A stretch of DNA of 64,000 nt from Rubripirellula reticaptiva (GTDB taxonomy: Bacteria; Planctomycetota; Planctomycetia; Pirellulales; Pirellulaceae), in NCBI RefSeq assembly GCF_007860175.1, contig NZ_SJPX01000004.1:1029781-1093780 (forward strand), in the 5' to 3' direction. Made by a program: the position numbers and the translations under genes. Of this stretch, positions 1 to 10,334 are shown one piece after another. The notes below the pieces were generated by a model that was given only the letters and a program-made list of their open reading frames with translations, was not told the DNA's origin and made no database searches. Numbering within the stretch: the stretch's first letter is position 1; each line of letters begins with the position of its first letter.

Positions 1-293
1 GTCGGCACGTCGGCATATTCGTTGATCGCGCCGATGTCATCGCTATCGGCGTTTTCGGCGTCGGCATCATCGGCTTCGGTGACCTTTTGTGTCGCTGCGA
101 CAAGTGGCACTGAAGCATCCGAAGTGGTTAGCAGTTGTCCGTCGTCGCCCAACTGATCCAACAGCGCAGCGGACAAGTCGGCTGCGTCGATATCAAGATC
201 GGCGCCGTCGATTCCTTCGCCGCTAAGCAGTACACGATCTTCAAGAGCGTAGAAGTCAAAATTCCGTTTTCGTCGAGACTTGCTCACTGTCAT
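1..293 (-). CDS. LEPR-XLL domain surface protein, N-terminal part
   Basis: Reading the minus strand from an ATG at 293 gives an open frame that runs off the left edge, so only about 97 residues are visible. The N-terminus is basic (SKSRRKR) and is followed by FYALEDRVLLSGE, a variant of the LEPR-XLL motif found at the N-terminus of very large planctomycete exoproteins. The rest is acidic and low in complexity, rich in Asp and Ala. There is no classical hydrophobic signal peptide in the visible part, as is usual for this family. GGA lies about 5 bases before the ATG. The gene is divergent from the export operon starting at 589 and shares its upstream region, which suggests a functional link (inference). 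The length and C-terminal domains (often cadherin, dockerin or Ig-like in this family) cannot be seen. Confidence 0.8.
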   Translation of the reverse strand, partial: MTVSKSRRKRNFDFYALEDRVLLSGEGIDGADLDIDAADLSAALLDQLGDDGQLLTTSDASVPLVAATQKVTEADDADAENADSDDIGAINEYADVP

Positions 294-588
294 ATTTCCG
301 TAGTTAAGATCTTGCGCATTCAAGCTCTGGATCGCTCCCATTAGCTTGCATCTATCGAAAAAGTAGCCCGCAAACAGCGGGCGAGTCGAAGAATTAGCGA
401 ATCTTTGCCGGTTGTTCCGATTGATCTTTCTAGGGGGCCGCGTCGGACAAAAACGGTTGCATCCGTCCGGATTGATTGGTCCTTGAATTTCGGTCCCGAC
501 TGGGGCAAGCCGCACATGCGATACAACCGACTTAGCCCTATTGAGTGCATACGCGCTCACGATTTACGTCAAGAAAGTAAGAGCAAGG
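294..588. other. Divergent intergenic region
   Basis: This stretch separates the LEPR-XLL gene from the TolC-led operon and must carry the promoters of both. It contains a perfect hairpin at 366-382. I see no convincing -10/-35 pair. A TTG at 541 could extend the TolC reading frame upstream, but it has no ribosome binding site. Confidence 0.5.
366..382. repeat. Perfect 6-bp hairpin
   Basis: GCCCGC at 366-371 pairs with GCGGGC at 377-382 across a 5-base loop. It lies between two divergent genes, so it is not an ordinary terminator. It may be a 5' leader structure or an operator; the role is unknown. Confidence 0.4.
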
Positions 589-2430
589 ATGCTTTACGGT
601 TGCCCCAACCGATCGCCCATGAGTCGCATTGTGCGAGCCATGGTCGTCTTCGCATTTGCTGCCTATGCAGCAAATGGGATGGTTGTATGGGGTGACGACG
701 ACTTGATCGAAGCCGGAAACATGCAAGCCGGCAATGCCGTATCCGATCAGGCTGACCCGCTGGCCTGGTGGATCGACGATGCATCGCAACCGTTGCTGGA
801 TCGCCCGGGATGGGTCACATTTGATCTGCAAACGGTGCTGCATGATGCACTGGCCCATAGCCCGCGGATTCAGGCAGTTTCACAGCGGACCAGCATCACG
901 TTGGAACGAATCGTTCAACAAGATGCTGCGTTTGACCCCAGTGTGTTGTTGGAAGGCAAGGCCGGACGTACCAACGAACCGGTGGGAAACACGCTGACCA
1001 CCGGCGGGCCGTCGCGTTCGATCGAAGAATCCTATATCGCCCGCGCTGGGATCCAGCAAACCGGACGGCGGGGCACCGAGGTGGACTTGTCGCAAGAGAT
1101 CGGGACGCTCGACAGCAACAGTCTGTTCTTCTTACCGGCCAATCAAGGCAATTCGAGACTGAGTCTCAGTTTGACACAGCCACTGCTCGGTCGCGGCGGA
1201 CAGGTCTACAATGAACGGTTGTTGACCCAAGCACAGATTGACGGACGAGTTTCATGGCAATCGATGCGCGGCGATGTCGAACAACAAATCGCCGACATCG
1301 TTTCGGCTTACTGGCTACTGTACGAATTGAGATGTCATCTTGTCCAAGCCAAGGGCTTGCTGGCTCAAGCCGCGGCGGTCGAATCGATCTTAGAAGCACG
1401 CCAGGATTTTGACGCTGGCAAAATCGAATTGGCCAAGGCGCGAGGTCGTGTTGCCAAACGCAACGACCGTGTCGTTCAAATGCAGGCCGAGGTCCAGAAG
1501 CAACAAGTTCGATTGGCGCGGTTGATCGGATCCGAAGAACTGATCAACGGTGGCAACCAGTTGGAATTGATTCCGCAAGCGGCGACGGTCTATCCGAATC
1601 TTGAAATCAATCTGGCGCAAGCGGTCATTCAGGGATTCGAGAATCGGCCCGAAATCCGATCGGCGACTTTGGCGATGGAATCGGCTGCGCTGTCGATCAA
1701 CGTCTCACGCACGGAACTGATGCCAGACCTGACCGCGGTCATGAATGGCTATCTGGCGGCCTTGAACGGCGAGAATGCGATCTTTCGGTCAATCGGAGAT
1801 CAATTTTCCAAAGGTGGGCCGGGATTGTCGGCGGGCCTGCGGTACGAGATGCCTTACGCACGCCGCGCCGCCAAGAGTCGCTATCGCGAGGCAAATTACC
1901 GCTATCAACAGCGAAGCGAAGAACTGCGCGAAGCGATCCAATTGACACACGCCGAAATTGAAATCGCATTGGTAAACGTCAATACCGCCATGCGACAACG
2001 CGACACGAAGCAACGCGTGCTGGTCACGGCGACCGAGGAAGAAACGATCTTGACTGCACGATGGGAAATGATGGCCGGCGAAGGCGGTAACGTGGGCACC
2101 GTTCTGGAAACCTTACTGGATGCCCAACAGCGACGGGCTGATGCTGAACGCGAATGGACAACCGCACGCAGCCAGTACTTAACGTCGTTGGTCGAACTTC
2201 AACGGGCAATGGGAACGTTGTTGCAACACGAAAGCGTCACCCCCGTCCGTTCGTCCCATGACAACTCGGTCGTCTTCTCGCACGACATTCCCAATCACGC
2301 TCCACTCCGTCGAACCTCGATTCCCGAGGTCACGATTTATCGTGACGACGGAATGATTGATGACCAACACCCACCCGTCGTGACGGGCGACCTGCAATAT
2401 CGAATGATCGATGAAGAGGAGTTCGAATGA
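589..2430 (+). CDS. TolC-family outer membrane channel protein
   Basis: Predicted outer membrane efflux protein of the TolC/OEP family, forming the exit duct of a tripartite export system. After a signal-like hydrophobic stretch (around residues 11-35) the protein has two long alpha-helical, Gln/Ala/Glu-rich halves. Typical OEP features include ALAHSPRIQ near the start and LSLTQPLLG before the first hairpin. Length, about 610 residues, is somewhat above the usual 450-500. The frame is open from a TTG at 541; ATG 589 is preferred because a purine-rich stretch precedes it, and ATG 619 would start directly at the hydrophobic segment. The stop overlaps the next ATG by 4 bp (ATGA), so it leads a translationally coupled operon. 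Confidence 0.82.
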   Translation: MLYGCPNRSPMSRIVRAMVVFAFAAYAANGMVVWGDDDLIEAGNMQAGNAVSDQADPLAWWIDDASQPLLDRPGWVTFDLQTVLHDALAHSPRIQAVSQRTSITLERIVQQDAAFDPSVLLEGKAGRTNEPVGNTLTTGGPSRSIEESYIARAGIQQTGRRGTEVDLSQEIGTLDSNSLFFLPANQGNSRLSLSLTQPLLGRGGQVYNERLLTQAQIDGRVSWQSMRGDVEQQIADIVSAYWLLYELRCHLVQAKGLLAQAAAVESILEARQDFDAGKIELAKARGRVAKRNDRVVQMQAEVQKQQVRLARLIGSEELINGGNQLELIPQAATVYPNLEINLAQAVIQGFENRPEIRSATLAMESAALSINVSRTELMPDLTAVMNGYLAALNGENAIFRSIGDQFSKGGPGLSAGLRYEMPYARRAAKSRYREANYRYQQRSEELREAIQLTHAEIEIALVNVNTAMRQRDTKQRVLVTATEEETILTARWEMMAGEGGNVGTVLETLLDAQQRRADAEREWTTARSQYLTSLVELQRAMGTLLQHESVTPVRSSHDNSVVFSHDIPNHAPLRRTSIPEVTIYRDDGMIDDQHPPVVTGDLQYRMIDEEEFE

Positions 2431-3473
2431 CCATGACCAAATTTTACACCATTCAAACCTTGGTGCGGCACTTGATGCAGAGTCGGGGAGTACCTCGTTT
2501 TCGCCGGATCATCAACGTGACGATCATCAACGTCACGTTGACCACCCTCGTCGTCGTTGTCGTCGTTGTCGTCACTGCGTCCGTCGGGACTACCGCCGTC
2601 CAAGCGGAGATGCAAAGTGTGCTCGTGCGTACTCCGTCACAGGATTTGTACGAGGGTTTGATCGAACCAAAGCACACCATCATGATCGCGGCAAGTGAAG
2701 TCGGTTTGCTTGAGTCGTTGGATGTTGAAGTCGGTGACCGAGTCAGTGCGGGGGAAGTGGTCGCACGCTTGGACGATGCGATGCAACAGTCCGCCGTTAG
2801 GATTGCGACGTTGCAGTCGCTGATGACTGGCGAACGGGATGCTACCAAAGCGGAACTCGATTTTTCGCAATCGCGTGCGCAAAAGCTGCGTCCGCTTGCC
2901 GCAAACGGGATGGCTCGCCCTGATGAATTGGCCAGAGCCGAAACGGAACTTCGGGTCAGTGCCGCGCGTTATGCGGCTGCCGAAGAGCAGTTTCAATTGC
3001 GACAACTCGAATTGCAACGCTATCAGTTGCAGTTGGAACGCCGCCGAGTTCGCTCGCCGATGGCGGGCGTGATTTCGCGAGTGCTGCGAAAACCAGGTGA
3101 ATTCATTTCGCCTGGTGAACCGTCCGTCGTGCAAATGTTAGTCGTGGATCAGTTGATCGCGGTGTTCAACATTCCGGTCGAAGATACGCCGGAAATCAGG
3201 GTAGGTGCGCCGGTGCGGATCTTCCTGCGCAGCACATCAACCAAAGTCGATGCTGCCGTGACTTCGCTTGCTCCCGAAATCGAAGGCGAAAGCGGAACTC
3301 TTCAAGTACGCGTCGAATTGGACAATGCCGAGGGCCGAATGTTGGCGGGTGATCGCTGCACGTTGCGGTTCTTGCCTGACAATGCCTCGACGGTTCAGCA
3401 GAACCCACACTCGCAATCTCGCTCGGCAAGCAACCCGTACATCCGATCAAATCATGGGGCGACAACCCGATGA
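2427..3473 (+). CDS. HlyD/RND-type periplasmic adaptor subunit
   Basis: Membrane fusion protein linking the inner membrane component to the TolC-like duct. There is one N-terminal membrane or signal segment (around residues 37-58) that includes nine consecutive valines. A lipoyl-like half motif (GLLESLDVEVGDRVSAGEVVARL) follows, then a coiled-coil hairpin rich in Gln, Glu and Arg (about 115-200), the second lipoyl half (RSPMAGVISRVL) and a beta-barrel (LIAVFNIPVEDTPEIRVG). The length, 348 residues, fits the family. The ATG overlaps the TolC stop, and its own stop overlaps the next gene by 4 bp. Family assignment is firm; the cargo is not visible from this gene. Confidence 0.85.
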   Translation: MTMTKFYTIQTLVRHLMQSRGVPRFRRIINVTIINVTLTTLVVVVVVVVTASVGTTAVQAEMQSVLVRTPSQDLYEGLIEPKHTIMIAASEVGLLESLDVEVGDRVSAGEVVARLDDAMQQSAVRIATLQSLMTGERDATKAELDFSQSRAQKLRPLAANGMARPDELARAETELRVSAARYAAAEEQFQLRQLELQRYQLQLERRRVRSPMAGVISRVLRKPGEFISPGEPSVVQMLVVDQLIAVFNIPVEDTPEIRVGAPVRIFLRSTSTKVDAAVTSLAPEIEGESGTLQVRVELDNAEGRMLAGDRCTLRFLPDNASTVQQNPHSQSRSASNPYIRSNHGATTR

Positions 3474-4933
3474 CATCGATGGGGCACCACGAATTGAGGT
3501 CCGAAGTACCGACGGCGTCACGAACGTCGTCGGCTTGGCCACGCGTATCGCTTTCCGGAAATCCGGAAGACTCGATGACTGCTGCCCTGGATGATGCGGT
3601 AACCAAGTTGGCGGCCGTTGCCGGATCGGCGCCCGTTGAAGTTGGGTCAGAAAAATCGACGGTTAATGCCGTGGTGCTTGTGTTGATCGAATCACTTGCG
3701 TCGGCGCCAAGTCGCGGCGATGCGCTAAAGCAACTGGTAGCTTCGATTGCCGCGGTCTGTCCCGAAGCCACCGTGCGTGGCGGCATCGGAAAAGGCCGAA
3801 TGACGCGTTTTGTCGATGCGCGTCTGGGTTGGCTTGGCCCTGAAAGTACTCTGTATCAAAAATCGGCCGCCGTTTGGGAAGGCAGTTCAAAACGTCGCGC
3901 CAGCGATCAGTCAAGCAACGCATCCGAGGTGGATCCGCAGCGTCCTTCTGTCACTCGTAATGATCGTGTCATCGAAGTTCGAATGCCGGCACCCGAAGGA
4001 TCAGGCCGCTGCATCGTCTGGATCGAAGGGCCGCTCGGTGCGATTGATTGGTTGCCGTCGACCTTGATCACGATCGGTGCCGTTTTGTGGAGTCGCCCTT
4101 CAAGATCACTGCCGACGATTGCGTTGTCGGTGGTTCAGCGATCAACCTGGGCGTTGGTGACGGTGGCGGTGTTGCTGTTGCTGGGGCTGTTTTGGCCGGT
4201 TCCTTACCGAGTCGCATGCACGGCGCGAGTCGAAACGATGGGTGGACGGTTCGTGTCGGCGCCTTTCGAAGCCACCTTGCTTGCCGCCAACGTTCGGCCA
4301 GGCGATGCGGTTGAAAAGGGTGAAGTGCTTTGCGAGCTTGACGGCCGACCGCTTCGGTTAGAACGCGAGGCTTTGATTTCGGAAATCGGGCAAGCATCGA
4401 AAGAGTACGACGTCGCCTTGGCGGGACGCAAAATTGCCGATGCTCAGCAGTCTGAACTCCGGCGCAAGCAGTTGAATCGTCAACTTGATTTGATCACCGA
4501 TCGGCTTGCAAATCTAGAAGTGATCAGCCCAATCAACGGGATCGTCGTCAGCGGAGACTTGGAACGACACATTGGTTCACCGCTTGAACTGGGGCAAAGC
4601 CTGATCGAGGTGGCGCCCATGGACACGATGCGAATCGAAATTGAAGTGCCTGAGCATGAAATTGGTTTCGTCGCACAGGGAAATGAGACACGTATCAAGA
4701 TCGATGCGATCGGCGGAGCGTCGATATACATGCCACTGCAAAAATTGCATCCTCAGTCGGAATTGCGCAACGACCTTAACGTGTTCGTGGGCTCGATCGA
4801 TTTAGGAAATGATGCCGGTGATTTTCGTCCTGGTATGCGAGGCGAAGCGACGATCTATGGTCCCAAGCGGCCCTGGATTTGGTCGTGGGTCCGCGGCGGA
4901 TTCGAACGATTATTGTGGTGGGCGGGATATTGA
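3470..4933 (+). CDS. HlyD-family adaptor with N-terminal cytoplasmic (GAF-like?) domain
   Basis: Second membrane fusion protein of the operon. Residues about 40-200 form a soluble domain that would lie in the cytoplasm. It resembles degenerate GAF domains seen on planctomycete HlyD proteins, but I hold that assignment loosely. A single membrane helix (around 218-240, ALVTVAVLLLLGLFWPV) is followed by HlyD features: a lipoyl-like half (RPGDAVEKGEVLCELDGRPL), a short coiled coil, then NLEVISPINGIVVSGDL and a beta-barrel domain. The first codons overlap the previous stop (ATGA). The last codons overlap a TTGA start of the next gene. The extra N-terminal domain could sense or dock a cytoplasmic partner (inference). 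Confidence 0.8.
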   Translation: MTSMGHHELRSEVPTASRTSSAWPRVSLSGNPEDSMTAALDDAVTKLAAVAGSAPVEVGSEKSTVNAVVLVLIESLASAPSRGDALKQLVASIAAVCPEATVRGGIGKGRMTRFVDARLGWLGPESTLYQKSAAVWEGSSKRRASDQSSNASEVDPQRPSVTRNDRVIEVRMPAPEGSGRCIVWIEGPLGAIDWLPSTLITIGAVLWSRPSRSLPTIALSVVQRSTWALVTVAVLLLLGLFWPVPYRVACTARVETMGGRFVSAPFEATLLAANVRPGDAVEKGEVLCELDGRPLRLEREALISEIGQASKEYDVALAGRKIADAQQSELRRKQLNRQLDLITDRLANLEVISPINGIVVSGDLERHIGSPLELGQSLIEVAPMDTMRIEIEVPEHEIGFVAQGNETRIKIDAIGGASIYMPLQKLHPQSELRNDLNVFVGSIDLGNDAGDFRPGMRGEATIYGPKRPWIWSWVRGGFERLLWWAGY

Positions 4934-7140
4934 ACCAAAACCCAGCACCTAACCCGACGCCTGGACCAATGCCCGGGCAAGGACCGGAACCAGGACCAGG
5001 ACCCGCCGGCGAACCTGCGGTCATGATTCGTATGGACTCGGCCGTCGAGTTTACGAGCCGCGAAATCGGTTCCCAGACTCAGGTCTTCGCGCATCACCAG
5101 TCGATTGGGAAATTCTTTCAGCTCGGCCCGGAAGAATATCGGATCGCAAGCCTATTTGATGGGACGCGGACGATGTCAGACGTTGTCGCACAGTTAGAAC
5201 TCGATGGGATGGACTGGGAACCGGCCGAGGTGGCTGAACTGGTCCAGCGATTCGTTTCTTGTGGAATCGCCCATGCCATGCCTGTCGCGGGCGCTGCGTC
5301 GCCCACGACGGCCGCCGCGCCGAAAAGTTCGCCGCAAGCCAACAAGCCGAATGTGTTTTCGCAGCTCTTGCCGAAATCGCTTTCGATGATCATTAGCCAA
5401 CGAATTCCGTTGCTTCAAGGTGATCGAATCGCAGCCTCGCTTGAACGGCGTGTCGGATCGATCTTTTCGACCAACGGAATTTGCATTTGGATTTTATTGG
5501 TGGCAAGCGGTTTGATGCTGGTGTTTGGACACCATCACGAGTTTGCGATTGAACTGCGACGGATGTTTGACCCCGGCATGTGGATGGTGTTGTTTGTGAT
5601 TTGGGTGGTGTCCAAGGTCATCCACGAATTGGGACACGCTGTTGCAGCCAAGTATCACGGCGTGCGTGTTGGCAAGATTGGCATCATGTTCTTTCTGTTT
5701 GCGCCGCTCGCGTACGTGGACGTGACTGACGCCTGGAAGCTGCGCAGCCGCTGGAGCCGTATTCAAATCGCACTTGGTGGCGTGTATGTCGAACTTGCCT
5801 TCGCCGCAGTGGCCGCCTGGACGTGGTGGTTCTTGCCAGCCGGAATGGCAAAGCATTTGGCGGCTCAGTTCTTCATGATTTCGGGGCCTGCGACGTTATT
5901 GGTCAACGCGAATCCGTTGTTACGGCTAGACGGATACTTTGTTGTTGGTGACTTGGTCGAAATTCCAAATCTGCGGATGCACGGACGCAACCACTGCGCG
6001 GCATGGATCGAAAAAGTACTAGTCAATATTCCCTCGCCGCGGCCACTGTTGACGGGTTGGCGACGTACTTTTGCGACGGTTCACGCGGTAGCTAGCGTAG
6101 CTTTTCAAATCGTTTGGATGTCCGGTTTGGTGATCGGTATTTCAATCTGGGCCAAAGGCTTGGGGATTGCGTTGGCCATCGTGGCGGCCGTCCTGTGGTG
6201 CGTGTTCCCGTTGACTAAGTGGGTATTGAAAGTCTGGATGTATCAGTCCGACCAGAAACGATTCTTCACGAGTCAGCGTTATCGATTGGTGATGCTTGGT
6301 TTTTTTGTCTTTTCAACTTTGCCGTCGCTTAGCATTGTTCATTCGCCAATGGATCGGCGAGTTCCGGTGGTGGTCCGTTTTCATGATGAACAAATCGCTC
6401 GATCGGCAACCGAAGCTTTCGTGCGAAAAGTTCACGTGACGTCCGGTCAACGCGTCAGCCATGGAACACTGCTGATCGAGCTGGACAATCCAGAGTTGAA
6501 GATGAAACGAGATCAGAAAGCTGACGATTTGCAATTGGCAGAATTGCGAGCCATTCAACTTCGTCGTCAGCATCAGTTGGCGATGGCGGCAAGCGAGTTG
6601 GAAACGGCCGAATCGCTTCGCCGGCAACTTGATGAACTGAACCAACAGGTACGTTCGTTGTCGATCGTTGCCGAACGAGAGGGGTTTGTGATCGGTTTAG
6701 GAGTCGAGCAACTGCAAGGACGGTTTGTTCATCCGGGCGACGAACTGCTGCGTGTCGCGGATCCTCAAGAGAAAGAACTGTTGGTTTCGGTCGGACCAAG
6801 CGACGTCGAGGCGTTTGGAAAAGTAACGGCGCAAAAGTTGCCCGGCGCTGTGCGACTGCGAGGCGGCCAATCTTTCCAGGCGACTCCGATGACCTTGCGC
6901 CCGAGGGCGCGAACGACGCTGCCGCATCCGGCACTCGCTGCAACCGTCGGTGGCCCCCTGCCGGTGGAACCGTCGCCGGACGACGACGGTCAGTGGCGAG
7001 TGGTTGATCCGCAAATGGAAAGTGTCACGCCGCTCGATCCCATCACAAGCCTGGATATTCATGCAGGCCAGATCGGGACTCTTTCGATCACTGACAATCG
7101 CACGATCGCATCGCGTCTGTACGATGCGATGAGCCGCTAA
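4930..7140 (+). CDS. PqqD-like / M50 site-2 protease / HlyD fusion membrane protein
   Basis: Three parts are visible. Residues about 31-110 match the PqqD-like fold (FTSREIGSQTQVFAHH, then FFQLGPEEYRIASLFDGTRT), a family known to bind leader peptides. The middle part is a polytopic M50 protease with an intact HELGH (232-236) and a second motif NPLLRLDGY (Asp334), giving the zinc ligands and catalytic Glu. The C-terminal part (about 490-640) is an HlyD-type lipoyl and coiled-coil segment. A Pro/Gly-rich stretch precedes the PqqD part. The frame is open from TTG 4879. TTG 4930 is preferred because it overlaps the previous stop (TTGA) and has GGCGGG upstream; ATG 4966 is the alternative. It is the last gene of the operon, and no ATPase is encoded here. 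Confidence 0.82.
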   Translation: MNQNPAPNPTPGPMPGQGPEPGPGPAGEPAVMIRMDSAVEFTSREIGSQTQVFAHHQSIGKFFQLGPEEYRIASLFDGTRTMSDVVAQLELDGMDWEPAEVAELVQRFVSCGIAHAMPVAGAASPTTAAAPKSSPQANKPNVFSQLLPKSLSMIISQRIPLLQGDRIAASLERRVGSIFSTNGICIWILLVASGLMLVFGHHHEFAIELRRMFDPGMWMVLFVIWVVSKVIHELGHAVAAKYHGVRVGKIGIMFFLFAPLAYVDVTDAWKLRSRWSRIQIALGGVYVELAFAAVAAWTWWFLPAGMAKHLAAQFFMISGPATLLVNANPLLRLDGYFVVGDLVEIPNLRMHGRNHCAAWIEKVLVNIPSPRPLLTGWRRTFATVHAVASVAFQIVWMSGLVIGISIWAKGLGIALAIVAAVLWCVFPLTKWVLKVWMYQSDQKRFFTSQRYRLVMLGFFVFSTLPSLSIVHSPMDRRVPVVVRFHDEQIARSATEAFVRKVHVTSGQRVSHGTLLIELDNPELKMKRDQKADDLQLAELRAIQLRRQHQLAMAASELETAESLRRQLDELNQQVRSLSIVAEREGFVIGLGVEQLQGRFVHPGDELLRVADPQEKELLVSVGPSDVEAFGKVTAQKLPGAVRLRGGQSFQATPMTLRPRARTTLPHPALAATVGGPLPVEPSPDDDGQWRVVDPQMESVTPLDPITSLDIHAGQIGTLSITDNRTIASRLYDAMSR

Positions 7141-7286: not shown

Positions 7287-7381
7287 AGCTGTTGAGGGGT
7301 CATGACGACACCCTTGCGGCTCTTATCTGCTTTTCAAAACTATTCACGACATCGTCTTCTCTGACGGATTGGAGAACGTTC

Positions 7382-8638
7382 ATGCTCAGTCTTGGACTGA
7401 TTGCCGGCGGAACCGCTGCGCTCGCAGCGGCCGCATGTGCCGAAAACGCTTGGCACCAACGAAATCTGCGTCGCATCCCCATTCGAATTCACGTCAACGG
7501 AACGCGCGGGAAATCCAGTGTGGTTCGATTGATTGCCGGCGGGCTGCGTGCCGGTAATATCCGCACGTGTGCAAAGACCACGGGGACTGTCCCACGAATG
7601 ATTTTTCCCGACGGCAGCGAGGCCACCGTGTTTCGTCCGTCTCGCGCCAACATCATGGAGCAGCGCCGAATCGTCCGTGCGGCGTCATTACTGAAAGCCG
7701 ATGCGTTGGTCGTCGAGTGCATGGCGCTGCAGCCGCAGTTGCAATCGATTTGCGAATTAAAATTGGTTCAGTCCACTCACGGAGTGATCACCAATGCCCG
7801 AGCAGACCACTTGGATGTGATGGGCCCGGACGTGACAGGTGTTACGCGAGCCCTTTGCGGAACCGTTCCGGTCGGTGGCACACTTTACACGGCCGAACAA
7901 CGTCGTGGCCCACGTACGGAAATGGCCAAAGCAGCGCTGGATCGTGGTTCCGATATGGTGCCGATTTTGGACGATGCGATTGCGGAAATCAGTTGGGAAG
8001 ACCTGGACGGATTTTCGCACATTGAACACCCCGACAACGTCGCCCTTGCGCTACGCATTTGCGGTGACCTGGGTGTGGATCGTCAAACTGCTCTGCAGGG
8101 CATGTGGAACGCCACGGCCGACCCGGGCGTGATGCGTCTGTTTCATGTCGGCGAAAGCAACCAGCCGATGGTTTTTGTCAGCGCTTTTGCGGCCAACGAT
8201 CCTGAATCAACAGGACACAGTTGGAATACGCTGGTCAAACGATACGAGAGTGTCGAGCGACGGATTGCGTTGTTCAATTGTCGCGAAGACCGTGTTGATC
8301 GATCGCTGCAATTGGCCGAGGCGTGCGTGCGTTGGCAACCGGCTGACCACTATGTGTTGTCCGGCACCGGTACCGAAGCATTCGCTCGAAAAGCGATTCA
8401 GAGCGGTTTGTCAAAAGATCGACTGACGATCGCTGATTCCGAGCCGACACCGAAACTGTTGCACTTGTTGCGTGGTCAATCGGGACGTTCATCGATGGTC
8501 ATGGGGATGGGGAACATCGCCGGCCCAGGAATGGAGTTGTTGGACTTTTTTCAATCCACGCAGGCGACCAAGTGGGCGCCGGCTGCGAATCAGCATCGTT
8601 TTAGCTCAGACGAATTGGTCGTGAAGGAGGCCGCATAA
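7382..8638 (+). CDS. pgsB: Poly-gamma-glutamate synthase subunit PgsB (CapB)
   Basis: ATP-dependent amide ligase of the Mur-ligase-like family that forms gamma-glutamyl bonds at the membrane. The N-terminus is a short hydrophobic anchor (LGLIAGGTAALAAAACA). The P-loop motif HVNGTRGKSSV lies around residues 37-47. ARADHLDVMGP and the acidic segment VVECMALQP are typical of PgsB. The length, about 418 residues, fits the family. An in-frame TTG lies at 7292, but ATG 7382 has GGAG upstream and starts at the anchor helix. The gene is followed without a gap by pgsC (TAATG). Most likely product of the pathway: an anionic gamma-linked polyglutamate or related capsule polymer. Confidence 0.9.
   Translation: MLSLGLIAGGTAALAAAACAENAWHQRNLRRIPIRIHVNGTRGKSSVVRLIAGGLRAGNIRTCAKTTGTVPRMIFPDGSEATVFRPSRANIMEQRRIVRAASLLKADALVVECMALQPQLQSICELKLVQSTHGVITNARADHLDVMGPDVTGVTRALCGTVPVGGTLYTAEQRRGPRTEMAKAALDRGSDMVPILDDAIAEISWEDLDGFSHIEHPDNVALALRICGDLGVDRQTALQGMWNATADPGVMRLFHVGESNQPMVFVSAFAANDPESTGHSWNTLVKRYESVERRIALFNCREDRVDRSLQLAEACVRWQPADHYVLSGTGTEAFARKAIQSGLSKDRLTIADSEPTPKLLHLLRGQSGRSSMVMGMGNIAGPGMELLDFFQSTQATKWAPAANQHRFSSDELVVKEAA
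8624..8630 (+). promoter_or_regulatory. Strong ribosome binding site of pgsC
   Basis: AAGGAGG, 7 bases before ATG 8638 and inside the end of pgsB, fixes the pgsC start. It is one of the clearest Shine-Dalgarno sites in the window; many other genes here lack one. Confidence 0.7.
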
Positions 8639-9117
8639 TGGAAAATCAGTTAGTCGCGATCGCTATCGGCTTGATCGTCAGTTTGATCGTCACGGAATGT
8701 TTAGGCCTTAGTGTCGGCGGCATGATCGTGCCCGGCTACATCGCCCTGTCGCTGCACCAACCGATCGCAGTGTTGTTGACCATCGTGGCGGCTGCGGCCA
8801 CGTGGGGATTGGTTCGAATCGTTTCACAGTACGCGATGCTGTTTGGACGTCGCCGAGTGGTGATGACCGTCATGATCGGATTTACCGTGGGCATGGCGTT
8901 CCGCGGATTGGCCGAGATGTTTTTCAGTCACGCAGCCGTCGGATCGATGGCCAGTGAGGCAGCAAACCCCGTGGTCATGATCGGATTCATCATTCCCGGA
9001 TTGATCGCATTGTGGTTTGAACGCCAAGGTTTGATTGAGACGTTGTCGCCGATGATGTCCGCTGCTGTCTTGGTTCGACTGGTTCTAATTCTCGTTGGCG
9101 TGGAGACTCTCGTATGA
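8638..9117 (+). CDS. pgsC: Poly-gamma-glutamate biosynthesis protein PgsC (CapC)
   Basis: Small integral membrane partner of PgsB. The 159 residues are almost entirely hydrophobic, with about four or five helices. The N-terminal signature is ECLGLSVGGMIVPGYIAL, typical of PgsC/CapC. Its ATG shares a base with the pgsB stop (TAATG) and has a strong AAGGAGG site upstream, so translation is probably coupled. Its own end overlaps the next ATG by 4 bp. PgsB and PgsC form the core synthase in other bacteria; the same is inferred here. Confidence 0.9.
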   Translation: MENQLVAIAIGLIVSLIVTECLGLSVGGMIVPGYIALSLHQPIAVLLTIVAAAATWGLVRIVSQYAMLFGRRRVVMTVMIGFTVGMAFRGLAEMFFSHAAVGSMASEAANPVVMIGFIIPGLIALWFERQGLIETLSPMMSAAVLVRLVLILVGVETLV

Positions 9118-10334
9118 ACACAAACAATCAACCGGGACTGAAGCGTCCATTCCAAGTCATGTACTGGCGTCCCAAGAAGATCTCGCGGACTTGGCTGTGG
9201 TGTTCGATGTTCGTGTCGCTGGCCGGCATGGCGGCGGTCGAGCACTGGCCGAAACGTACAACGTCCAGTGATCAAGAAACCCTGCTCGCCGCAGCCACCG
9301 ACGCCCAATCGTCGATGCAGTTCATTGCTGAAATGCAGTCGGAAAGGGGACACCGCGTCCTGTCGGCTCTCGACCCCCAGGCTTCTCATTTGATTGGACC
9401 TTCGATGTCGATGGTGACCAGCAAGATTGGTTCGCTGTCTTCGAAGCAAACTTCGATCAATCCGAATTTCGCGGCCGTCGTCGTCCGCTGGCTGATCGAT
9501 GCCGGTGTCAAACCCGGTGACCGTGTGGCGATCGGAGCAAGCGGTTCGTGGCCCGCGTTGAACATCGCAGTCTATTCGGCAATCAAGGCAATGGACCTGC
9601 GTCCGACCGTGATTTTGTCAGCCGGGTCAAGCCAGTACGGTGCAAACTCGCCCGACATGATGTGGGTCGACATGGAACGTGAACTACATTCCGCGGGGCT
9701 GACGTCAATCAAGGCCGGCGCCGCGTCGCTGGGCGGATTGCACGATCGGGCCGCCGGGATGACACCGGCGACTCGGCAACTATTGCTCAGTGCGATCGAG
9801 CGTAATTCGGTCGAGCTGATCGAATCACCTACGCTTGCTGAATCGATTGACCAACGAATGCAACGTTATGATGTGCAGTCCAATGACAATACGTATTCGG
9901 CTTACATCAATGTCGGTGGAAGTTCGGCATCGATTGGTGGAACGTTGGGGCAAGAGTTTTATCTGCCAGGCGTCCGGTCGGTTGGACCCGAAAACGCCGG
10001 TTCGCTTGCCAGTGTGCCTGACTGTGTCGCGACCAGAATGCTTGCGAAAAACGTTCCAGTGATTCACGTCGGCAACGCGCAAAAGGTGGCCGAGCAGTTT
10101 GGATTCCCGATCGCGCCGGCTGTCATGCCATCGGTCGGGGATGGACTGGTCTATGCCAAGACGGCGCATCGAATGCCGTTGGTGGCAAGCGTGATGGTCT
10201 TGATCACGTTTGCGATGTCATGGATCGTGTTGCCCGGTTGGCCAATTCGGATTTTGCGACGGATTCGTCCGACATCAACGCCGCAGGACCTTTGCCCAGC
10301 ATCCATTCCAGCGAAATTGGAATGGATGGCGTGA
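9114..10334 (+). CDS. pgsW: Poly-gamma-glutamate system protein (PgsW type)
   Basis: This 406-residue protein resembles the poly-gamma-glutamate system protein family that accompanies pgsB and pgsC in several non-Bacillus lineages. It has one N-terminal helix (about 25-43, TWLWCSMFVSLAGMAAVEHW) and one near the C-terminus (ASVMVLITFAMSWIVLPGW), with a large extracytoplasmic domain between them. That domain contains GVKPGDRVAIGASGSWPALN, LSAGSSQYGANSP and VGGSSASIGG, all typical of the family. It replaces the PgsA/CapA position in this operon. No pgsA or pgsE homologue is nearby. Its biochemical role is not established; release or export of the polymer is only a guess. Confidence 0.8.
   Translation: MNTNNQPGLKRPFQVMYWRPKKISRTWLWCSMFVSLAGMAAVEHWPKRTTSSDQETLLAAATDAQSSMQFIAEMQSERGHRVLSALDPQASHLIGPSMSMVTSKIGSLSSKQTSINPNFAAVVVRWLIDAGVKPGDRVAIGASGSWPALNIAVYSAIKAMDLRPTVILSAGSSQYGANSPDMMWVDMERELHSAGLTSIKAGAASLGGLHDRAAGMTPATRQLLLSAIERNSVELIESPTLAESIDQRMQRYDVQSNDNTYSAYINVGGSSASIGGTLGQEFYLPGVRSVGPENAGSLASVPDCVATRMLAKNVPVIHVGNAQKVAEQFGFPIAPAVMPSVGDGLVYAKTAHRMPLVASVMVLITFAMSWIVLPGWPIRILRRIRPTSTPQDLCPASIPAKLEWMA

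Follow-up and report, generated by a model that had tools for sequence, protein, structure and literature searches.

We analysed a window of 64,000 nucleotides from the planctomycete Rubripirellula reticaptiva (G000:C4:1029781-1093780, forward strand; G000 is its own genome, 7.85 Mb), at the left end of which the gene of a giant LEPR-XLL protein lies divergent from an operon encoding a TolC-like outer membrane factor (OEP), two HlyD adaptors, and an M50 membrane protease. This arrangement and its gene parts, which a sequence-only reading of the DNA had proposed, were borne out by profile matches. Only the first 293 bases of the window belong to the giant gene, as its 5' end (1..293, minus strand); the frame ends at G000:C4:1000464, and its length is 9,958 codons if the farthest start is taken and about 9,870 if counted from base 293, a start favoured over 560 by the relatives MPRNFDFYRLEDRVLLSGE and MTKRNFHFFRLEDRVLLSGE and their leaders. 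The LEPR-XLL profile NF012209 matched near the N-terminus with 23.1 bits against a cut-off of 17 (G000:C4:1029978-1030028, minus strand), and the leader core L-E-D-R-V-L-L-S-G, preceded by the basic stretch SRRKRN, occupies 219..245 on the same strand.

The HlyD-M50 operon and the giant protein

The giant gene and the operon are separated by an intergenic region (294..588) whose limits vary with the choice of start. The operon, on the plus strand, begins with the OEP gene (589..2430, its start being uncertain between 589, 619, and 640), which matched PF02321 with an E value of 2e-21 when scanned from 613 and TIGR01844 with 56.9 bits, below the cut-off. It is followed by an adaptor of the HlyD/RND (resistance-nodulation-division) periplasmic type (2427..3473), matched by TIGR01730 (118.3 bits, cut-off 94.9), PF13437, and PF16576, and by a second HlyD adaptor (3470..4933), matched by PF13437 and PF16576 and with family matches in the sister loci B and C described below. 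This second adaptor consists of a long N-terminal extension, a hydrophobic stretch visible in the sequence, and the HlyD domain. No ATP-binding cassette (ABC) or RND pump was found in the scan of the operon proteins, a scan that did not extend to ABC exporters encoded at other sites; the claim that no such energy subunit is encoded here is correct for these proteins.

The fourth gene (4879..7140, plus strand; likely start of the protein, 5023) encodes a fusion of an RRE/PqqD-like domain, an M50 intramembrane protease, and a C-terminal HlyD/MacA-like adaptor domain (6337..7131). In the AlphaFold2 model, residues 1-44 of the long frame had a confidence score (pLDDT) below 50. The protein matched PF02163 (E 3.2e-10), the daptide model NF041824 (E 9e-45; 153 bits, cut-off 300), and NF058609 (E 1.5e-13, below cut-off), and its best matches were labelled Rubripirellula and Rhodopirellula. 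In the predicted structure, the N-terminal domain (model residues 48-136; 5020..5286) adopts a winged fold like that of RRE domains solved with a leader peptide. This likeness came from VIA; Foldseek with the M50 model gave only adaptor-type chains among the 50 matches listed. The earlier description of a PqqD-like domain fused to M50 thus held for the RRE/PqqD-type fold and the complete active-site motifs and failed for the profile, since a scan of the entire genome with PF05402 (E 0.001) remained empty; the label PqqD-like therefore rests on NF041824, below its cut-off, and on the predicted fold. In the HELGH zinc-site motif (5623..5637, of the form HExxH), H249, E250, and H253 were invariant in 42 of 42 alignment rows, as were N343, N345, D351, and G352 in the second active-site motif, NANPLLRLDGY (5905..5937); the distal N and D were also invariant in 20 of 20 rows of a second alignment.

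Two described proteases resemble this fusion. In daptide biosynthesis, an RRE-fused site-2 protease removes the leader from precursors that share a short conserved motif at the N-terminus (PMC10036551), and EpeP/YydH, a membrane M50 protein of Bacillus subtilis, is thought to cleave and export its small peptide (PMC10885120). Like the daptide protease MpaP, the window protein has an RRE domain N-terminal to an intramembrane site-2 protease and is matched by NF041824; unlike MpaP, for which short-peptide cargo is described (PMC10036551), it falls below the cut-off of that model, carries an HlyD domain, and belongs to an HlyD/TolC operon. The match to NF058609 links it to EpeP, the cargo of which is a small peptide (PMC10885120).

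The giant was scanned for domains in three pieces (9,777 residues). Behind the leader lies a DUF4347 domain (E 1.6e-50), followed by laminin-G and lectin domains, cadherin and Ig-like repeats, PKD, and NHL. This domain is caspase-like: it shows the fold and the His/Cys pair of a Clan CD (caspase/CHAT-like) peptidase, and it may have peptidase activity. A sequence search of the PDB with the DUF4347 alignment found the DUF4347 chain 9qpe_G and also designed TIM barrels, the latter being short overlaps that were taken as chance. In two related loci of other genomes (L074 and L077), DUF4347 occurs in tandem at the N-terminus, the first copy being without the presumed active-site Cys (in L074 also without the His). 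At the other end, the giants of the window (A, G000:C4:1000464), of locus B, and of locus L083 share the hydrophobic motif G-x-[VI]-x-W-x-[IL]-R-[GS]-G ... P-x-W-x3-DP, which is perhaps an anchor; no universal C-terminal signal was seen by eye among the giant ends compared, and this motif was not seen in the proteobacterial ends among them.

In type I secretion systems (T1SS; HlyB-HlyD-TolC), an ABC transporter is encoded with the adaptor and the duct, and the cargo carries an uncleaved C-terminal signal. The window shares with them the HlyD adaptor, the TolC-like duct, and giant repeat proteins, but the operon proteins scanned include no ABC transporter and the proposed signal is N-terminal, not C-terminal. 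The passages on such systems in PMC7730722 concern conventional T1SS only.

Sister loci and SecA_DEAD proteins

The own genome gave 11 matches, four of them HlyD-only, which left seven M50 proteins. The three mutually closest ones sit in OEP operons, each adjoining a leader-bearing giant gene: the window (locus A), locus B (C4:247246-263250; giant of 2,397 residues, LEPRILF), and locus C (C3:538814-558619; giant of 3,541 residues, LEDRVLF). Loci B and C hold the full set including a SecA_DEAD gene, in both cases with GEGKT and DExD motifs, and locus A is like them except that SecA_DEAD is missing. A further SecA_DEAD gene at C2:945206 is divergent from a LEPRLVLNA gene (NF012209 13.7 bits, below cut-off), with one open reading frame (ORF) between them. 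The energy supply, which the sequence-only reading had left open, thus has a candidate: SecA_DEAD may, by inference, be the missing motor. Loci B and C have its gene inside the operon, and for the window type it is encoded at other sites of the genome.

An orphan SecA_DEAD gene (G000:C5:506017-508215, about 730 residues, with GEGKT and DExD) lies in no module, and matches of similar length occurred in 14 of 14 searched relatives. The four more distant M50-HlyD loci (G000:C1:666421, C3:1079206, C2:1329246, and C2:1539633) have no SecA_DEAD and no adjacent LEPR gene, and no LEPR neighbour was found within the 40-50 kb around each; one of them has a weakly similar OEP, and one has two LEQR-type genes about 20 kb away.

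Loci of this kind were described by Kamneva, Poudel and Ward in 2015, with a secondary SecA_DEAD, HlyD-M50 proteins, a GAF-HlyD protein, and sometimes an OEP; in their proposal M50 is the pore or membrane part and SecA_DEAD the motor (PMC4452313). The window shares with those loci, found in planctomycetes and proteobacteria among others, the HlyD adaptors, the M50 membrane protein, and the OEP of some of them (PMC4452313), and it combines a Kamneva-type M50-HlyD protein, HlyD adaptors, and OEP, but differs in having no SecA_DEAD in the locus. The second adaptor (3470..4933) is the positional counterpart of the GAF-HlyD protein, and no GAF match was obtained here. The main text of that paper names no cargo, leader, or RRE/PqqD domain, and the words cadherin, PqqD, LEPR, adhesin, and leader are absent from it (PMC4452313). 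One operon that the authors name is META1p2402-2399 of Methylobacterium extorquens AM1.

Leader peptidases are known among M50/RRE proteins (PMC10036551, PMC10885120) and the window operon encodes no motor; on this footing the module might process without exporting, the giant leaving by an ABC-type T1SS or another route while the module is confined to clipping it or to retaining or anchoring it at the surface. With the search for ABC exporters limited to the operon proteins, we consider this unlikely, since the TolC duct and three HlyD domains are conduit parts and the SecA_DEAD genes of the sister operons point to transport.

The leader and its association with the module

The leader consists of a basic stretch, the core L-E-[PD]-R-x-[LM]-[LF]-[SDN]-[AG], and an acidic stretch. 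Among 34 leaders, position 1 was L in 32, position 2 E in 34, position 3 P or D in 27, and position 4 R in 33, followed mostly by V/I/L, L/M, L/F, S/D/N, and A/G; the pattern by which these leaders had been chosen constrains positions 1, 2, 4, and 6-9 wholly or in part, so that the free evidence lies in positions 3 and 5 and in the flanks. The mean net charge was +2.0 in the 14 residues before the core and -3.4 in the 15 residues after it. No leader of the 34 had a signal-peptide-like hydrophobic core (highest 15-residue mean hydropathy, 1.19); a conventional signal peptide was therefore rejected, as the sequence-only reading had supposed.

A profile built from 21 planctomycete leaders recovered, at E below 0.05, 12 of 13 proteobacterial leaders that had been preselected by motif (the exception being Eleftheria, E 0.55) against 1 of 335 controls, and the single positive control was itself LEPR-like (L063). 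The window leader clustered with window-type leaders of other species and not with those of loci B and C from its own genome. Over 31 pairs, leader distance tracked M50 distance (Mantel r 0.77; 0 of 5000 permutations), a correlation that could be explained by linked inheritance as well as by co-adaptation.

Co-occurrence was assessed by Fisher test in a phylum sample of 98 genomes, drawn evenly and including the own genome. M50 was present in 24 genomes, NF012209 in 9, and both in 8; NF012209 thus matched in 8/24 genomes with M50 versus 1/74 without (p 3.5e-5), and in 7/23 when the own genome was excluded (p 1.3e-4). At the level of genera, through which alone these statistics allow for phylogeny, the counts were 6/20 versus 1/62 (p 6.5e-4). 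When M50 lay within 5 kb of SecA_DEAD (12 genomes), LEPR was found in 7/12 versus 2/86 (p 1.9e-6). Of 150 genomes from the order to which Mesorhizobium L102 belongs (Rhizobiales), 15 had M50, 9 had NF012209, and 4 had both (4/15 versus 5/135, p 0.006); the four shared matches were the only ones in frames longer than 1,000 residues (p 6.7e-5 with this post hoc filter). All NF012209 genome counts are lower bounds, because the profile, which names the LEPR-XLL motif only, misses module neighbours such as those of locus C and of Mesorhizobium L102 (genome G112), where LEDRLLLNA stands directly behind M50.

For adjacency, the fixed motif was therefore used. The scan of species genomes gave 53 loci, 49 of which (L060-L108) entered the count, with an M50 ORF called in 48; L102 dropped out, and the Chloroflexi loci L109-L112 (M50 only) were excluded. 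Among ORFs of at least 300 residues, the motif was present on 16/65 lying directly beside the module versus 2/97 others (p 9.3e-6). Leaders were found in 8 of 11 loci with SecA_DEAD, OEP, and some readable flank, and in 3 of 19 without OEP in view, many of them cut by contig ends; two further loci had no flank. Greedy ORF calling overlooks genes where the GC content is high: L102, G242, G134, G236, P_G025a, P_G025b, P_G027, and P_G057 yielded no M50 ORF, and the tallies for these loci are weak. The fixed motif also overlooked the variant LExRIAFD[AG] in three Rhizobiales loci (G161, G245, and G250), which was seen by eye later, followed by a DUF4347-like start, and remained uncounted; a motif match of P_G003 inside an HlyD-like frame was set aside as chance. 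Both relations to which the sequence-only reading had looked for a link between LEPR-XLL and M50 genes were thus observed, the co-occurrence being significant in the planctomycete and Rhizobiales samples and the adjacency enriched over control ORFs.

The window-type loci numbered 18 (L060-L077). For 14 of them the genomes were searched, and 14/14 had an NF012209 match at some site and two or more SecA_DEAD matches in addition to the one of canonical length. Of the non-canonical, non-orphan SecA_DEAD matches, 8/21 lay within 5 kb of an NF012209 match, each divergent from it, versus 0/28 of the canonical and orphan ones (p 4.5e-4, read by hand).

The module also occurs on proteobacterial plasmids. 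An M50 relative was found in 67 plasmid records and 16 loci were retrieved; the N-terminus of the neighbour was readable in 13, the other three not being judged. The leader was present in 11/13 loci versus 0/173 other ORFs of the same loci: those of E. coli, Alisedimentitalea, Pseudosulfitobacter, Pontibrevibacter, Thalassospira, Methylosinus, Kosakonia, Azospirillum brasilense, Mesorhizobium ciceri, A. thermophilum, and Eleftheria. In Alisedimentitalea it lies upstream of the annotated start; in Azospirillum brasilense it belongs to a DUF4347 gene that immediately precedes an Ig-like giant, and in A. thermophilum it is carried by an ORF of 220 residues within the locus; three plasmid neighbours are annotated as LEPR-XLL proteins. 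SecA_DEAD was found in 8/16 loci in the stretch read.

The E. coli plasmid locus (L113, NZ_CP081687.1) has an Ig-like giant with the leader LESRQLFDG and no SecA_DEAD in the stretch read; it was the one examined among the 17 Escherichia and 8 Citrobacter plasmid records with M50 relatives. In five alphaproteobacterial loci (L116, L117, L118, L122, and L127), the first HlyD gene has a small DUF3467 gene ahead of it, which lies behind the giant where the latter is annotated and whose product is perhaps a cargo chaperone. Downstream of the operon in the window itself, 7292-10334 (plus strand) resembles a poly-glutamate capsule operon: one product is similar to Mur ligases (E 2e-4, below cut-off), another is a CapC protein (PF14102, E 2.8e-32), and the third is 406 residues long.

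The leader might also be an atypical SecYEG signal, the giant being driven by a secondary or canonical SecA and the module acting from the periplasm on. Such a route would accord with the secondary SecA_DEAD of the sister operons and of all 14 searched genomes with window-type loci, and with the enterobacterial plasmid loci L113 and L123, which have no SecA in the stretch read. However, the leaders have no hydrophobic core, and a leader-binding fold in a membrane protein would then have no purpose; we regard this route as quite improbable.

A proposed leader-guided exporter

The link between the LEPR-type leader and the M50 module is real and recurrent, across distantly related bacteria. No such link was found in the titles and abstract openings listed by searches of the open-licence PubMed Central literature. 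The simplest reading of this link is leader-guided export, given the RRE-protease precedents (daptides, EpeP), the HlyD-TolC parts, and SecA_DEAD.

Several observations weigh against this reading. Within the own genome, SecA_DEAD is absent from the window operon and present in loci B and C and elsewhere; several LEPR genes (LEQRxLLA, LEERRLLA, and LEPRLMLA types) stand apart from any module; and the giant of locus C went undetected by NF012209 even at E 10, so that its leader rests on the motif and DUF4347. In the phylum sample, 16 M50 genomes had no NF012209 match and one genome (G087) had a LEPR match and no M50, and in the Mesorhizobium order five genomes had a match, in short frames, and no M50. 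The motif was missing from 49/65 module neighbours, and OEP loci without SecA_DEAD in view had an adjacent leader in only 5/16. No leader was found in the plasmid loci of Phyllobacterium and Magnetospirillum. SecA_DEAD was not found in the stretches read of L113, L118, L123-L126, L128, and L129, so that SecA may not be the motor there. In addition, the motif positions are partly set by the search pattern, and linked inheritance would serve for the Mantel correlation.

Two further points of this kind concern adjacency. The loci L064-L069 (labelled Rhodopirellula, Stieleria, and TBK1r) keep the operon with another shared neighbour in place of an adjacent leader-bearing giant, and 15 loci from the genomes of other planctomycetes showed no fixed motif on the neighbours within the stretches read, one of them having a neighbour with the variant-like LEQRKMLTT. 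Both would accord with a module that exported something else, the LEPR giants lying nearby only through clustering of surface-protein genes. This explanation appears very improbable, since a specific short leader is associated with the module across phyla, above control ORFs of the same loci, and since the genes co-occur in genomes even without adjacency; the genomes of L064-L069 have NF012209 matches elsewhere.

The system is probably an ABC-less, leader-guided protein exporter of giant surface proteins. The computed elements are its parts, the leader-machine link, the RRE-like fold, the intact protease motifs, and the secondary SecA_DEAD. In the cytosol, the M50 membrane protein would bind the N-terminal leader of the giant through its RRE/PqqD-like domain, and the SecA_DEAD ATPase, as the putative motor, would feed the unfolded chain to the membrane in the outward direction. 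The M50 part would clip the leader, and the M50 and HlyD parts together with the TolC-like duct would make or gate the path out. The caspase-like DUF4347, which follows the leader closely, may afterwards process the giant itself.

To our knowledge, RRE domains have so far been known from peptide natural products. A bolder proposal, which we put forward tentatively and hold a little short of even, is that these loci represent a separate and widespread secretion class, neither T1SS nor Sec, in which an RRE domain would read a short N-terminal leader on cargo proteins that reach ten thousand residues, M50 would remove it at an HlyD-TolC gate, a SecA-like ATPase would drive transport, and a caspase-like domain would mature the cargo outside, in planctomycetes and alpha-, beta-, and gammaproteobacteria, also on plasmids. 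The analysis supplies a probable cargo and a probable recognition signal for a secretion-like locus that was described in 2015 with neither, and it proposes an export route for a class of giant surface proteins, in which leader recognition of the type known from ribosomally synthesized and post-translationally modified peptides (RiPPs) would serve proteins that exceed RiPP precursors a hundredfold in size.

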